In this document: in pieces, positions 3,322 to 28,472 of the stretch | Layout of the letters: every line of letters begins with the position of its first letter | How positions within the stretch are numbered: position 1 is the stretch's first letter | Origin: Bacillota bacterium | GTDB taxonomy: Bacteria > Bacillota > TC1 | Direction: 5' to 3' | Assembly: GCA_024635925.1 (NCBI GenBank) | Contig: JAGXHY010000033.1 | Coordinates: 1 to 64,000, forward strand | Length of the DNA: 64,000 nucleotides | Made by a program: the position numbers and the translations under genes | Notes under the pieces: generated by a model | Told to the model about the DNA's origin: nothing | Database searches by the model: none | What the model saw: the letters and a program-made list of their open reading frames with translations, nothing else

Positions 3322-3370
3322 ATATAAAAAATCGGCATTAGTTTAATGCCGATTTTTTAATACTTATTTT
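3322..3370. repeat. Direct repeat copy 2 (terminator plus flank)
   Basis: Second copy of the segment at 2018-2067. It is identical over the 18 nt left of the loop and 28 nt right of it, including the AATACTTATTTT flank that is not part of the hairpin. Confidence 0.85.
3326..3358. terminator. Bidirectional terminator, copy 2 of the repeated terminator
   Basis: A 15-bp perfect stem with a 3-nt loop, A6 on the left and T6 on the right. It serves the SDR gene on the plus strand and the nifU-like operon converging from the right. Confidence 0.9.
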
Positions 3371-3390: not shown

Positions 3391-4026
3391 TTATTCTGTA
3401 AATGTTACATTAACTTCCTTAACATCCCAAAGAGTTTCAATCTTTTCGATAGCATCTGATTTAATTGCATTAGCGAATTGATGATTTTCAGGTAAGTCTA
3501 TTAAAATATCGACAATACCATCTTTAACACTAATATCTTTAACTAGGTTAGTTCTAATCATATCCAAACCTTTTATTGGATTCATAACCTTTTTTAATCT
3601 CTTAGTAATTACTTCTACAGTAGTATCTACCTTTTCAGTAACTAAACCATTTTTTTCTTCATAGTTTTGAATAGCTGCTCTTAAAGTTTCAATAGCTAAG
3701 ACAGAACAATGGACCTTAATAGAAGGTAAGCCACCAAGTGCTTCGGAAGCTTGTTTCCAAGTTATTTTTTTTGCTTCATCAATTGTCTGACCTTTTGCTA
3801 ATTCTGTAATTATTGAACCAGTAGCAATATTGGATGCACAACCATATGACTCAAACTTAATGTCTGATATTATCAAGGTTTTTGGATCAACATTTAGATA
3901 TAAAGAAACCATATCTCCGCAAGCTGGGCTACCTTCAGTGGCTTTACCATCAGGATCTTTAATACTACCAATATTTCTTGGGTTTTTAAAATGTTCTAAT
4001 ACTACATCATTATATGGAAAAGACAT
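3391..4026 (-). CDS. IscU/NifU-type Fe-S scaffold fused to a MIP18/DUF59-like domain
   Basis: A 211-aa protein. Residues 1-125 are an IscU/NifU scaffold with all expected cluster ligands: Cys36 and Asp38 (ACGD), Cys63 (YGCAS), and His106-Cys107 (VHCS). Residues about 140-211 resemble the MIP18/DUF59 domain found in Fe-S targeting proteins, but lack the usual Thr-x-x-x-Cys-Pro site, which reads PENHQF here. The fusion suggests assembly and delivery in one polypeptide. It is the last gene of the tusA-dsrE-nifS-nifU operon, starting 2 nt after the nifS-like stop, with AGGAGG upstream. Confidence 0.85.
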   Translation of the reverse strand: MSFPYNDVVLEHFKNPRNIGSIKDPDGKATEGSPACGDMVSLYLNVDPKTLIISDIKFESYGCASNIATGSIITELAKGQTIDEAKKITWKQASEALGGLPSIKVHCSVLAIETLRAAIQNYEEKNGLVTEKVDTTVEVITKRLKKVMNPIKGLDMIRTNLVKDISVKDGIVDILIDLPENHQFANAIKSDAIEKIETLWDVKEVNVTFTE

Positions 4027-4028
4027 TT

Positions 4029-5201
4029 CTATTCCTCCTTTTCTTTACCTAAAGGACTGATTATCCTTAGGTTCTTTATTACACTAGCAAGAGTTTCGAC
4101 TACATATTCTACTTCTTCCATAGTATTATATCTACCAAAGCTAAATCTTATAGAACCGTGAGCTCTTTCATGGTCACCACCAATGGCAGCAATAACATGG
4201 CTAGCTTCAAGTGATTTACTAAAACAGGCAGAACCTGTACTTACTGAAATACCATACATATCAAGGTGAAGAGTTATTGACTCACCTTCAACATAATGAA
4301 AACTAATATTTGCATTTTGTGGTATTCTTGATTCTAAATCACCGTTTAAGGTTACCTCTGGAACTTTTTCAAAAATTAATTCTATAATACGTTTACTCAT
4401 TTTTTTAATTCTGATATTTTCTTCTTCTGTTACTAGGTCTACAGCTTTTGCAAAACCAATTGCCCCAGTTATATTATCCATACCACCTCTTAAGTTAAAC
4501 TCTTGGAAACCACCATCCATTATTTTGGCTATTGGTGTTCCTTTACGAATATATAGACCACCAATTCCTTTAGGACCGTGGATAGTATGAGCAGAAACAG
4601 TTATTAAATCGGCAGGTATATCTTTGACATCAATAGGCACTCTAGTAAAACTATGAGTAGCATCAGTATGGAAAACAGTATGTTTTTTCCAACAGAGATT
4701 TCCAATTTTTTCAATATCTTGTAATGTGCCAATTTCCTGATTAGCGTGTTGAATAGAAACTAGAATAGTTTCTTTAGTGATTAATTTTTCTAATTTATCG
4801 ATATTTACAAAACCAAATTCATCAACATCAATATAGTCAATCTTGAAACCTTCCTTTTCTAGTGCTCTTGCACTATAAAGTACTGGAAAATCTTCAACTT
4901 TACTTATTATTATGTGTTTGCCTTTTTTTTGACCTAATGCTAAAGCGATTCCCTTTAAAGCTAGATTACTAGATTCAGTACTACCTGAAGTGAAAATAAA
5001 TTCTTCAGGTTCTGCTCCAAGTCTATTAGCCAAAGTTTTTCTAGCTTCAGCAAGGGCGTCTTTTGCATCAATTCCCATTGAATAGCCAAATTCTGAAGTT
5101 GCTATAGAATAGTTGTCAAAGTAAGAAGGAGTCATAGCTTCTAATACTTTCTCATCAAGTCTTGTAGCTGCAGCATTATCTAAATATATATTTTTTTCCA
5201 T
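4029..5201 (-). CDS. NifS/IscS-like protein lacking the PLP-binding lysine
   Basis: A 390-aa fold-type I protein clearly related to IscS/NifS along its length: TSGSTES, ANQEIGTLQDI, GPKGIGGLYIR, the mobile-loop cysteine in STGSACFSKS, and IRFSFGR. The active site is altered. The segment that should read S-G/A-H-K reads SAHT, so the Schiff-base lysine is Thr206. The ring-stacking histidine (EHxAV) is Asp104 (EDFPV), and the conserved glutamine in DATQS is His184. The GNPSS and RxGT motifs are also degraded. The codon at the Lys position is ACT, two changes from either Lys codon at least in one case, so a single sequencing error is unlikely. Probably not a functional cysteine desulfurase; it may act as a partner or sulfur carrier for the adjacent scaffold. 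Confidence 0.85.
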   Translation of the reverse strand: MEKNIYLDNAAATRLDEKVLEAMTPSYFDNYSIATSEFGYSMGIDAKDALAEARKTLANRLGAEPEEFIFTSGSTESSNLALKGIALALGQKKGKHIIISKVEDFPVLYSARALEKEGFKIDYIDVDEFGFVNIDKLEKLITKETILVSIQHANQEIGTLQDIEKIGNLCWKKHTVFHTDATHSFTRVPIDVKDIPADLITVSAHTIHGPKGIGGLYIRKGTPIAKIMDGGFQEFNLRGGMDNITGAIGFAKAVDLVTEEENIRIKKMSKRIIELIFEKVPEVTLNGDLESRIPQNANISFHYVEGESITLHLDMYGISVSTGSACFSKSLEASHVIAAIGGDHERAHGSIRFSFGRYNTMEEVEYVVETLASVIKNLRIISPLGKEKEE

Positions 5202-5217
5202 AATTAACTCTCCATTT

Positions 5218-5637
5218 CTATATTAGCAAAGTAATATTAGAATTTCTTGCTTCTTGGACGTATGTTCCAACTGCACCATATTCATCAATTAACTCTTCTC
5301 TAAGATCAGATCGTTTAAGTCCCATAATATCCATAGTCATTTCACAGGCGATTATTCTGCCTCCAAGTTCCTTAAAATCTGCCATTAATCTTTCTAGACT
5401 TGCTACTTTATTTTTTTTCATTCTCATTGTCATTAGAAGTCTGCCCAATCCAAAAAAATTCATCTTTGAAAGAGGTCCTTTTTCTAATGCACCTTTTTTT
5501 AGTCGTAATAGTCCCCAAAAGGTAAAGTAAAGTGAAACATCCATACCCATAGACAAGGAACCATTTGACACAATTAAAGCGCTATATAATTTATCCATAT
5601 CTCCACTTTGAACTATAATTGTAGTTTTATCAGTCAT
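5218..5637 (-). CDS. DsrE-family sulfur-carrier-like protein
   Basis: A 139-aa protein of the DsrE/DsrF/DrsE_2 group. It has an N-terminal IIVQSGDMDK strand-loop, a mid-protein MNFFGLG region, and a conserved Cys98 in GGRIIACEMTMD, the position where DsrE-like proteins carry persulfide. It acts in the cytoplasm. It lies between the tusA-like gene (12 bp) and the nifS-like gene (16 bp), so a role passing sulfur from TusA to the cluster-assembly proteins is likely. The GAGGTTTTTT-type upstream sequence supports this start. Confidence 0.8.
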   Translation of the reverse strand: MTDKTTIIVQSGDMDKLYSALIVSNGSLSMGMDVSLYFTFWGLLRLKKGALEKGPLSKMNFFGLGRLLMTMRMKKNKVASLERLMADFKELGGRIIACEMTMDIMGLKRSDLREELIDEYGAVGTYVQEARNSNITLLI

Positions 5638-5649
5638 AAAAAAACCTCC

Positions 5650-5871
5650 TTATTTAAGTATTTTTATTGTCCAAATACCTTCTGATTCTTCGATGCTAAG
5701 TACTTTAAGTGTTAAAGCCTTAGCAGCCATAGGTATTTCTTTTTTTGAAGCCTGGTTTGTTCCGGTAATTACAATAGTATCTCCTGATTGGGCCTTTTTA
5801 ACTGCCTTTCTCACTTCAACCAAAGGAATAGGACAGGTTTCCCCTGTTACATTAACTAGAATTTCTGCCAT
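5650..5871 (-). CDS. TusA-like sulfur carrier
   Basis: A 73-aa SirA/TusA-family protein with the diagnostic ETCPIPL motif. Cys13 in CPxP is the persulfide-carrying residue. Full length for the family (70-80 aa), with the usual two-layer alpha/beta pattern. It is the first gene of the four-gene minus-strand operon, preceded by a strong GGAGGTAAT. In this setting it probably receives or hands over sulfane sulfur to the DsrE-like and NifS-like proteins. Confidence 0.9.
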   Translation of the reverse strand: MAEILVNVTGETCPIPLVEVRKAVKKAQSGDTIVITGTNQASKKEIPMAAKALTLKVLSIEESEGIWTIKILK

Positions 5872-6074: not shown

Positions 6075-7334
6075 ATGAATAATACAAAAATAAAAGTAGC
6101 TATTGGTTTTGCTACAGGTAGGAAGTCTTTTAAAAAAATTTTAAGATGCTATATTAAAAATTGGCAAGAAAGCGGATTGTTCAGTCGAGATAATCTGGAA
6201 ATAAATGTTATAGTAGCATATGATGTGAAGTATAAAAATACCAAGTCTAATAATTTTACAAGAACCTCAAAAGACTTAAGGAATCTTGTAGATAATTTTT
6301 ATTTTATAGGTGAAGATGAAGTTCTAGCTTTAAAAAAAGAATTGATTGAGAAATCAGTATTAAACTCAAAAGAAAGTGAAAATATATTAGGCAAAGGTTA
6401 TGGGTCATTGAGAAATATAATCTTATTAAAAGCTATAGAAGAGGGGCACGATTCTTTATTATTTCTTGATGATGATGAATTTCCTATTTCAGTAATAAAA
6501 AACAAAAAAAATAAACTGTTTTGGAGTGGACAACATGTACTTTCTAGTCATTTATCAAATATACCTAAATGTGATATAACACATGGTTATCATTGTGGTT
6601 ATGTTTCCCCAATACCTAGTTTAAAATTCAATGAGATTTTAAGTGAAAAAGATTTCAGATTGTTTATTAAAGCGATAAGTAATGATATTGTCACTTGGGA
6701 TAATATTAAGGCAATAATGGATGATGGTGGAGTCACATATGCAGAAGAGAAGATTTTTAACAAATCTCAAATAGAAGAAGTAAAAGAAAAAAATAAATCA
6801 AAATTTATTTCTGGTTCAAATTTATGTATTAATTTGACAAAGCCAGAACGTACTTACCCATTTTATAATCCTCCAGGGGCTAGGGGGGAAGATTCATTTT
6901 TAGCTACCTATCTAACTGATAGAAAAGTACATAAATTGCCTATTTATGCTTTCCATGATTGTTTTGATAACTACAATCACCTTCTTAATGGAGTTTTACC
7001 TACTAAATTGATTTCTATAAAAGCAGATAATAAAAAGGATGTTGATAGGTTTTATTGTGCTTGTATCGGATGGATTAGATATAAGCCTTTATTGATGTAT
7101 ATAACTAATAATCATGAATATGATAAGATTATCAAGGAGATGAAAGAGGTATTATCACAAACTATTCCTAAAATATGTGAATATTTTAATGATAATAGAT
7201 TTCATAATATTTTGAAAGAACTTAAGATATATGATTCTAAAGTAGAAGAGCACTATAATAGTTATCTAAATGCAAAAAAATCATGGGAATTGGTAATTTT
7301 ATATTTTATCAATAATAAAAATGGGATTAAATAG
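6075..7334 (+). CDS. Putative GT-A glycosyltransferase-like protein
   Basis: A 419-aa protein that I do not recognise as a named family. It has the outline of a GT-A nucleotide-sugar enzyme: an N-terminal KVAIGFATGR strand, a strand ending in an acidic LDDDEFP motif (Asp132-Asp134) in the position of a metal-binding DxD, and PPGARGEDSF (about 268-276), reminiscent of the catalytic ED of family-2 enzymes. There is no signal peptide or membrane segment. AAAGGAGG precedes the ATG. The start of a small accessory region, 200 bp from the divergent tusA operon. Confidence 0.5.
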   Translation: MNNTKIKVAIGFATGRKSFKKILRCYIKNWQESGLFSRDNLEINVIVAYDVKYKNTKSNNFTRTSKDLRNLVDNFYFIGEDEVLALKKELIEKSVLNSKESENILGKGYGSLRNIILLKAIEEGHDSLLFLDDDEFPISVIKNKKNKLFWSGQHVLSSHLSNIPKCDITHGYHCGYVSPIPSLKFNEILSEKDFRLFIKAISNDIVTWDNIKAIMDDGGVTYAEEKIFNKSQIEEVKEKNKSKFISGSNLCINLTKPERTYPFYNPPGARGEDSFLATYLTDRKVHKLPIYAFHDCFDNYNHLLNGVLPTKLISIKADNKKDVDRFYCACIGWIRYKPLLMYITNNHEYDKIIKEMKEVLSQTIPKICEYFNDNRFHNILKELKIYDSKVEEHYNSYLNAKKSWELVILYFINNKNGIK

Positions 7335-9297: not shown

Positions 9298-9372
9298 ATA
9301 ACCACTTCTTATATAAAATTAGAAATAAATTGACTAAATAAATACAATATGTTAGTATAAATTCAATTGAAT

Positions 9373-9490
9373 AAGAACTTCAGGGCAGGGTGAAATTCCC
9401 TACCGGTGGTAATAGTCCACGAGCCTCAAAAGGGTTGATTTGGTGCAATTCCAAAACCGACAGTAAAGTCTGGATGGGAGAAGTTAAGTT
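9373..9490 (+). ncRNA. FMN riboswitch (RFN element)
   Basis: Carries the conserved RFN blocks AGGGCAGGGTGAAATTCCC, CCGGTGGTAATAGTCCACGAG, TTGGTGCAATTCC and CCGACAGT. P1 pairs AACTTC (9376-9381) with GAAGTT (9480-9485). The same 5' strand, AACTTCAG (9376-9383), is perfectly complementary to CTGAAGTT (9571-9578) at the base of the downstream terminator. FMN binding should therefore free the terminator and shut off the rib operon. The 9298-9611 gap is fully explained by this element. Confidence 0.95.
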
Positions 9491-22215: not shown

Positions 22216-22255
22216 TTGTATATGTTATTATTACCAATGTAAGTATTAATATATT

Positions 22256-22420
22256 TTTTAGTAATGCACGGGAAAACAGTTAAAATCTGTTGCAGCCTCC
22301 GCTACTGTAATCACTGATCAGTTTAAATTATGTCACTGTCGCAAGATGGGAAGACCGATGACTGAGTTTTAGGTGTAAGCCAGGAGACCGATTATTAAAA
22401 AACACGGTTTTATATTTCGG
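22256..22420 (+). ncRNA. Cobalamin riboswitch aptamer
   Basis: Contains the conserved blocks of the adenosylcobalamin aptamer: GCACGGGAAAACAG, P5 hairpin AACAG/CTGTT, GCAGCCTCCGCTACTGTAA and the B12 box AGCCAGGAGACC (22378-22389). It precedes btuFCD-cobTUS, which is the expected regulon. With its expression platform (22421-22502) it accounts for the 339-bp gap between genes. Confidence 0.93.
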
Positions 22421-28214: not shown

Positions 28215-28472
28215 AATTTAAATTCGTTGAACAAAGGTAAGTATTTGTTATTAAACGACAATAGAGAGCTGATGATGGTGTAAATTCGGTGTTAGTAATA
28301 ATGAAGAATGGATTTGTGAGAAGCTGGTGGAAAATGGAAACATAAGTATATCTAGCCGTTAGTCCACGTTATAGGGTAGAGGTATGATAGTACCTTGTAA
28401 AGGAATTATGAAAATAATTTAAAATTGGGTGGTACCACGAGTCAATCGTCCCTTGGATGATTGACTCTTTTT
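28215..28472 (+). ncRNA. T-box riboswitch of the trp operon
   Basis: A 258-nt leader with the T-box core GGGTGGTACCACG (28427-28439), an AGAGAG stem-I base (28263-28268) and GAA-TGG-A at 28306-28312, where TGG (28309-28311) is the likely tryptophan specifier codon. The antiterminator sequence runs into a terminator stem GAGTCAATC/GATTGACTC (28439-28467) and a T5 tract. Uncharged tRNA-Trp should promote read-through. The gap 28131-28493 is explained by this element. Confidence 0.92.
28439..28472 (+). terminator. T-box regulated terminator
   Basis: 9-bp perfect stem GAGTCAATC/GATTGACTC followed by T5, 21 nt before the trpE start. Confidence 0.92.

Follow-up and report, generated by a model that had tools for sequence, protein, structure and literature searches.

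The window analysed here, a stretch of 64,000 nucleotides from a Bacillota bacterium, encodes a NifS/IscS-fold protein in which threonine stands in place of the Schiff-base lysine that binds PLP in cysteine desulfurases. Its gene lies in an operon with those for a TusA-like sulfur carrier, a DsrE-like sulfurtransferase and an IscU scaffold fused to DUF59. In our view, with a probability of roughly 0.6, the protein is a PLP-independent sulfurtransferase of the IscS fold which takes sulfane sulfur from TusA and DsrE on Cys326 and delivers it to IscU-DUF59 for Fe–S assembly; it probably passes on ready-made sulfur rather than extracting it from cysteine. Among the loci that we sampled, linkage to TusA and DsrE is restricted to lysine-less IscS. 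Loss of the lysine as such is already known from Archaeoglobus fulgidus IscS and Methanosarcina acetivorans IscS1; for the TusA/DsrE link, our searches of the open-access literature turned up no report.

The four-gene operon

The operon occupies positions 3391–5871 of the minus strand, and Pfam domains confirm the succession TusA, DsrE, NifS-like protein and IscU-DUF59 that had been proposed from the sequence alone. The genes are separated by 12, 16 and 2 nt and each is preceded by a Shine–Dalgarno-like sequence. The first (5650–5871, minus strand) encodes a 73-residue TusA-like sulfur carrier (PF01206, E = 8.8e-19) whose only cysteine, Cys13 of the CPxP motif (codon 5833–5835, minus strand), is conserved in 73 of 73 aligned relatives; the domain match and the CPxP cysteine are both those expected of a TusA. 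In E. coli TusA a conserved aspartate pair, Asp45/Asp51, assists sulfur transfer; compared by eye, the window TusA has other residues in this stretch (GTNQASKKEIP versus ADDPATTRDIP). The second gene (5218–5637, minus strand) encodes a DsrE/DsrE2-like sulfurtransferase of 139 residues (PF13686, E = 4.6e-33), also with a single cysteine, Cys98 (codon 5344–5346, minus strand), present in 69 of 69 aligned relatives. It is followed by the intact, uninterrupted reading frame of the NifS-like protein (4029–5201, minus strand; 390 residues; PF00266, E = 3e-70) and by that of the 211-residue scaffold (3391–4026, minus strand), in which an IscU/NifU_N domain (PF01592, E = 1.5e-42) is fused to DUF59 (FeS_assembly_P; PF01883, E = 3.7e-13). 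The scaffold retains the three cysteines and the aspartate that ligate the cluster (Cys36, Asp38, Cys63 and Cys107), all conserved in every aligned relative. A terminator-like hairpin with a 16-pair stem followed by a T run (3325–3359, no strand assigned) is placed between the end of the operon and a convergent SDR gene.

A 419-residue open reading frame at 6075–7334 is divergent from the operon and has no Pfam match. The vicinity of the operon yielded no known regulatory RNA; elsewhere the window contains an FMN riboswitch (9372–9489), a cobalamin riboswitch (22245–22410) and a T-box leader (28218–28456).

Active-site residues in the lysine-less family

Statements about the pocket rest on homology to E. 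coli IscS numbering, with the E. coli IscS sequence as the ruler. Codon 206 (ACT; 4584–4586, minus strand) specifies threonine within TVSAHTIHGPKG. Relative to E. coli IscS, Lys206 becomes Thr206, His104 becomes Asp104 (codon 4890–4892, minus strand), Asn155 becomes Gln155, Gln183 becomes His183 (codon 4653–4655, minus strand), Thr243 becomes Met241 and Asn35-Pro36 becomes Ile33-Ala34. Asp104, Gln155 and His183 thus stand where PLP-ring contacts were, and with Thr243 the phosphate cup has lost its threonine. Cys328 and Arg354 are kept, here as Cys326 of the persulfide-loop motif STGSACFS (codon 4224–4226, minus strand) and Arg352. The sequence-only reading had described the threonine codon at SAHT, changes in the EHxAV, DATQS, GNPSS and RxGT motifs, and an intact Cys of GSAC and Arg of IRFSFGR, and the alignment bears it out at each of these positions.

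GTDB species genomes were scanned and the best 80 relatives, which are 61–85% identical to the window protein, were retained. Position 206 is Thr in 68 of them, Leu in 11 and Ser in one; lysine occurs in none, and since these relatives come from many phyla, sequencing error or chance is ruled out as the reason for its absence. Asp104, His208 and Cys326 are each present in all 80 and His183 in 79. The conservation of the replacement residues across the clade argues against decay and in favour of a function that has been kept. The hosts comprise Bacillota (Acetobacterium, Anaerobium and Dethiosulfatibacter), Chloroflexota, deltaproteobacterial lineages and Atribacteria, together with the archaea Methanosarcina, Methanohalophilus, Methanococcoides, Methanofastidiosum, Theionarchaea and Altiarchaeales. 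Few Bacillota have the protein (4 of 300 genomes) and its distribution is patchy, with two of five genomes of the window's genus carrying it; this points to horizontal spread or to losses on several occasions.

Comparison of 32 Thr/Leu-type, 17 Asp-type (A. fulgidus type) and 35 Lys-type sequences indicates that the two lysine-less types are different re-workings of the site. In the Lys-type enzymes Lys206, His104, Asn155, Gln183, Thr243 and Arg354 are each found in 35/35. The Thr/Leu type has Thr or Leu at 206, Asp104 (31/32), Gln155 (32/32) and His183 (31/32), has lost Thr243 in 31/32 and keeps Arg354 in 32/32, with Phe232, Phe235, Phe327 and Lys226 as clade-specific residues. The Asp type has Asp206, Ala183 (16/17) and Asn205 and has lost Arg354, and it keeps His104, Thr243 (16/17) and, in most sequences, Asn155. 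Common to both are the loss of Lys206 and Gln183 and the retention of the loop cysteine. In the tree the Thr/Leu and Asp clades each receive 100/100 support, but a joint Thr + Asp clade fits equally well (AU p = 0.54). The claim of two independent lysine losses is therefore unsupported, and the data agree equally well with one lysine-less lineage coupled to TusA/DsrE and with two. A second, SufS-like group which appeared to lack the lysine (apparent GHA or GHS) was discarded, as the full sequences read GHK[AG]LLGPQG with the lysine present.

Within the NifS-like family Asp180 and Arg352 are invariant and Thr75, Ser203 and His205 are mostly kept; Lys226, near the pocket-entry loop, is also invariant and is rare in the Lys type. 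An AF2 model (pLDDT 84.7) has fold type I and superposes on Nfs1/IscS structures with TM scores of 0.87–0.92; in this monomer the pocket loops 33–42, 228–241 and 325–331 are of low confidence. Compared with a PLP-dependent desulfurase, the protein has the IscS-like fold, the persulfide-loop cysteine and the substrate arginine; it lacks the aldimine lysine and the ring and phosphate contacts, and its score of 429.7 bits against the NCBIfam NifS equivalog TIGR03402 is below the cut-off of 530.75. As the lysine is missing, the protein should not be annotated as a cysteine desulfurase, and from these residues we infer an absence of PLP catalysis, such that the normal PLP cysteine-desulfurase reaction would be beyond it.

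Linkage to TusA and DsrE

A locus was scored as linked when a TusA or DsrE gene, detected by profile searches, lay in the same orientation no more than 1.5 kb away. Linkage was found in 75 of 82 Thr/Leu-type loci and in 20 of 21 Asp-type loci (relatives of A. fulgidus), where Pfam confirms the neighbours as TusA and DsrE, compared with none of 60 Lys-type loci (0/31, and 0/29 in further Bacillota loci) from the same genomes as the lysine-less IscS or related ones (Fisher p = 3e-36, the loci being treated without correction for relatedness). Of the seven unlinked Thr/Leu loci, two have TusA at a distance of about 2 kb, and several lie close to the end of a contig. The DUF59 extension on IscU is present at 76 of 79 Thr/Leu, one of 25 Lys and none of 20 Asp loci. 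A DsrE ortholog of at least 66% identity and the NifS-like protein are found in exactly the same four of the 300 Bacillota genomes, and the DsrE hits that come next fall off clearly. Clustering of the wider neighbourhood gave no near-universal partner besides the four genes. At six Chloroflexota loci (L025, L043, L064, L066, L074 and L080; for example, L066 4218–4709) a ferritin gene lies between the NifS-like and IscU genes, which would tie the operon to iron.

We note several further arrangements. A lysine-type IscS with IscU adjoins the lysine-less operon in L018, L022 and L030, with both versions side by side. A ThiI-like gene, identified by eye, is ahead of TusA and the Asp-type IscS in the Archaeoglobi L142, L145 and L146, a possible link to tRNA thiolation. 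A DsrE-like domain is located in an 840-residue reading frame of the window's own genome (C31, 26886–27152), and comparable frames of 810–910 residues are found in many Bacillota.

In addition, the window's genome encodes an IscR-like–IscS(Lys)–IscU cluster and a lysine-bearing SufS-like protein. Lysine-type IscSU accompanies the NifS-like operon in many genomes, which makes a separate role for the operon likely, and because other Fe–S systems are present in most genomes (SufB/SmsB in 11 of 12 sampled), the module would usually run beside them. No other IscS/SufS-type protein was found in two Methanofastidiosum MAGs, which may be incomplete; a third relative has a SufS-like protein.

Both IscS genes found in A. 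fulgidus (100% match to PDB entry 4eb5) are of the Asp type. IscS-1 (L238) belongs to a complete TusA–DsrE–IscS–IscU operon. IscS-2, the crystallised copy, is 87% identical to IscS-1; TusA is absent, and the DsrE frame preceding it starts late and is truncated. By eye, IscS-2 (L239 808–1839) is downstream of a FeoB-like gene and a DtxR-type regulator. Two genes lie downstream of the IscS-1 operon (L238 187–585 and 801–1139, minus strand): a small one of HTH-like type, and one for another DsrE-like protein that by eye resembles the window DsrE. The A. fulgidus protein (PDB entries 4eb5, 4hvk and 4r5f) therefore resembles that of the window in its lysine-less IscS fold adjoining IscU and, for IscS-1, in the presence of TusA and DsrE. 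It differs in having Asp for Thr, at 43% identity, and its IscU is without DUF59. The parallel with A. fulgidus drawn by the sequence-only reading holds for the lysine, but not for the pattern of replacements, as His104, Thr243 and mostly Asn155 are kept there and Arg354 is lost. The stated lack of desulfurase activity agrees with work cited in PMC7585200; the stated lack of PLP is doubtful, as the Fig. 1 legend of PMC9769115 depicts the IscS–IscU crystal structure 4EB5 with PLP.

The 80 relatives include Methanosarcina loci that share the operon. M. acetivorans IscS1/IscU1 (MA0808/MA0807; Deere et al., 2020, PMC7585200) shares the absence of the PLP lysine and the STGSACFS loop, the Phe of which is specific to the NifS-like clade, and the 24-kDa IscU1 is the size of IscU-DUF59. 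The study detected IscS1 in the proteome, obtained it as inclusion bodies and suggested that it behaves as A. fulgidus IscS does; the neighbouring genes were given as of 'unknown function', and the report contains no TusA/DsrE link, sulfur-relay role or activity data (PMC7585200).

Proposed sulfur transfer and competing explanations

In the mechanism that we favour, the IscS-fold protein would be a dimeric sulfurtransferase platform: TusA and DsrE, carriers with one cysteine each, would supply sulfane sulfur to the flexible-loop Cys326 for onward transfer to the cluster site of IscU-DUF59 (Cys36/Cys63/Cys107, Asp38), the whole serving for cysteine-independent sulfur delivery and Fe–S assembly. 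The source may be sulfide, polysulfide or persulfide and the product Fe–S clusters, with partner binding and transfer direction presumably as outlined. The flow would be the reverse of that in E. coli, where sulfur moves from IscS to TusA (PMC2854127).

Several observations argue for a relay. The lysine is lost throughout the 80 relatives and the PLP-ring and phosphate contacts have given way to new conserved residues, with the Cys loop and Arg352 intact. The operon is conserved, as are the single relay cysteines of TusA and DsrE and all of the IscU cluster ligands. TusA and DsrE accompany lysine-less but not lysine-type IscS, the DsrE ortholog and the NifS-like protein share the same four Bacillota genomes, and A. 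fulgidus IscS-1 has the same partners. The ferritin gene in Chloroflexota, the two Methanofastidiosum MAGs and the coexistence with Lys-type IscSU elsewhere fit this reading, as does the binding of both IscU and TusA, at distinct sites, by E. coli IscS (PMC2854127). The family-wide lysine loss, the linkage, the IscU ligands and the ferritin gene likewise strengthen the earlier proposal of an Fe–S or sulfur-relay module with no normal desulfurase. Against a relay, the TusA-contact residues Trp45 and Asp52 of E. coli IscS correspond to Ile44 and Ala51 in the window protein, and the window TusA is without the usual Asp pair.

The protein has the fold, persulfide-loop cysteine and IscU partner of a canonical IscS/NifS desulfurase, and differs in the lysine, in the replaced contacts and in having TusA and DsrE in its operon. 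As in the E. coli Tus relay (IscS–TusA–TusBCD–TusE), single cysteines would pass sulfur among IscS-fold, TusA and DsrE-family proteins (PMC2854127, PMC3397948); there IscS is the PLP-dependent source and tRNA the end, whereas here the sulfur probably ends on IscU-DUF59 and the IscS-fold protein would not be its source. In Allochromatium vinosum either sulfide or IscS with cysteine persulfidates DsrE, and DsrC receives sulfur from DsrEFH (PMC3397948); Metallosphaera DsrE3A and TusA pass thiosulfate (PMC4175335). The MIS and SMS systems are also minimal anaerobic Fe–S assembly systems; as described in PMC12192291, SMS is SufBC-like and was shown to use sulfide, MIS, ascribed to Garcia et al. (2022), has an IscS-like cysteine desulfurase with an IscU-like scaffold, and TusA and DsrE are mentioned there for neither.

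One alternative is a structural role like that proposed for the desulfurase-inactive A. fulgidus IscS, whose loop cysteine ligates the cluster on IscU (PMC7585200, PMC9769115): the NifS-like protein would hold IscU while Cys326 ligates a nascent [2Fe–2S] cluster built from free sulfide, and TusA and DsrE would serve otherwise. The loop cysteine is invariant in our family as well, but such a role does not account for the restriction of the TusA/DsrE linkage to lysine-less IscS, which extends to A. fulgidus, and we consider it unlikely. Outward movement of sulfur is also conceivable for three adjacent sulfur proteins: the NifS-like protein and IscU could pass or store sulfur for TusA and DsrE, destined for tRNA thiolation, Moco or another thio-cofactor. 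This is the direction of flow in E. coli (PMC2854127) and would suit the ThiI-like gene of some Archaeoglobi; however, a protein that lacks the desulfurase step would have no sulfur to give, and IscU-DUF59 and ferritin point to Fe–S clusters, making this quite improbable.

The mostly kept Asp180, Ser203 and His205 could permit loose PLP binding, and the invariant Lys226 and the depiction of 4EB5 with PLP in the legend cited above also count against a relay. Together with the invariant Arg352 and mostly kept Thr75, they would suit a modified PLP/PMP enzyme with its cofactor held non-covalently or on another lysine such as Lys226, its substrate being perhaps cysteine persulfide or some other amino acid. 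We find this highly doubtful, as five residues universal in the Lys-type sequences (Lys206, His104, Asn155, Gln183 and Thr243) are all replaced and 11 relatives have Leu206. A decaying pseudogene or a sequencing error, for which several degraded motifs might speak, is refuted by family conservation, the frame being uninterrupted and preceded by a ribosome-binding site and the replacements invariant across relatives.

A bolder reading, which we consider rather unlikely, is that a new site has arisen in the former PLP pocket (Asp104, Gln155, His183, His208 and Arg352 near Cys326). It might bind a small perthiol, polysulfide or metal, and the IscS fold would have become a PLP-free enzyme in which sulfane sulfur of inorganic or low-molecular origin is loaded onto Cys326. 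If this were true, TusA–DsrE–IscS*–IscU, where IscS* denotes the lysine-less protein, would be a separate, cysteine-free route to Fe–S clusters, A. fulgidus included. The TusA/DsrE link offers a likely sulfur donor for the puzzling A. fulgidus IscS, for which there are crystal structures of an inactive protein. The factors which direct sulfide to the Fe–S machinery of Methanococcus are unknown (PMC7585200). For the question of how anaerobes living on sulfide supply sulfur for Fe–S assembly, lysine-less IscS with TusA and DsrE is a concrete candidate that spans Bacillota, Chloroflexota, methanogens and Archaeoglobus and is relevant to organisms related to Methanococcus.
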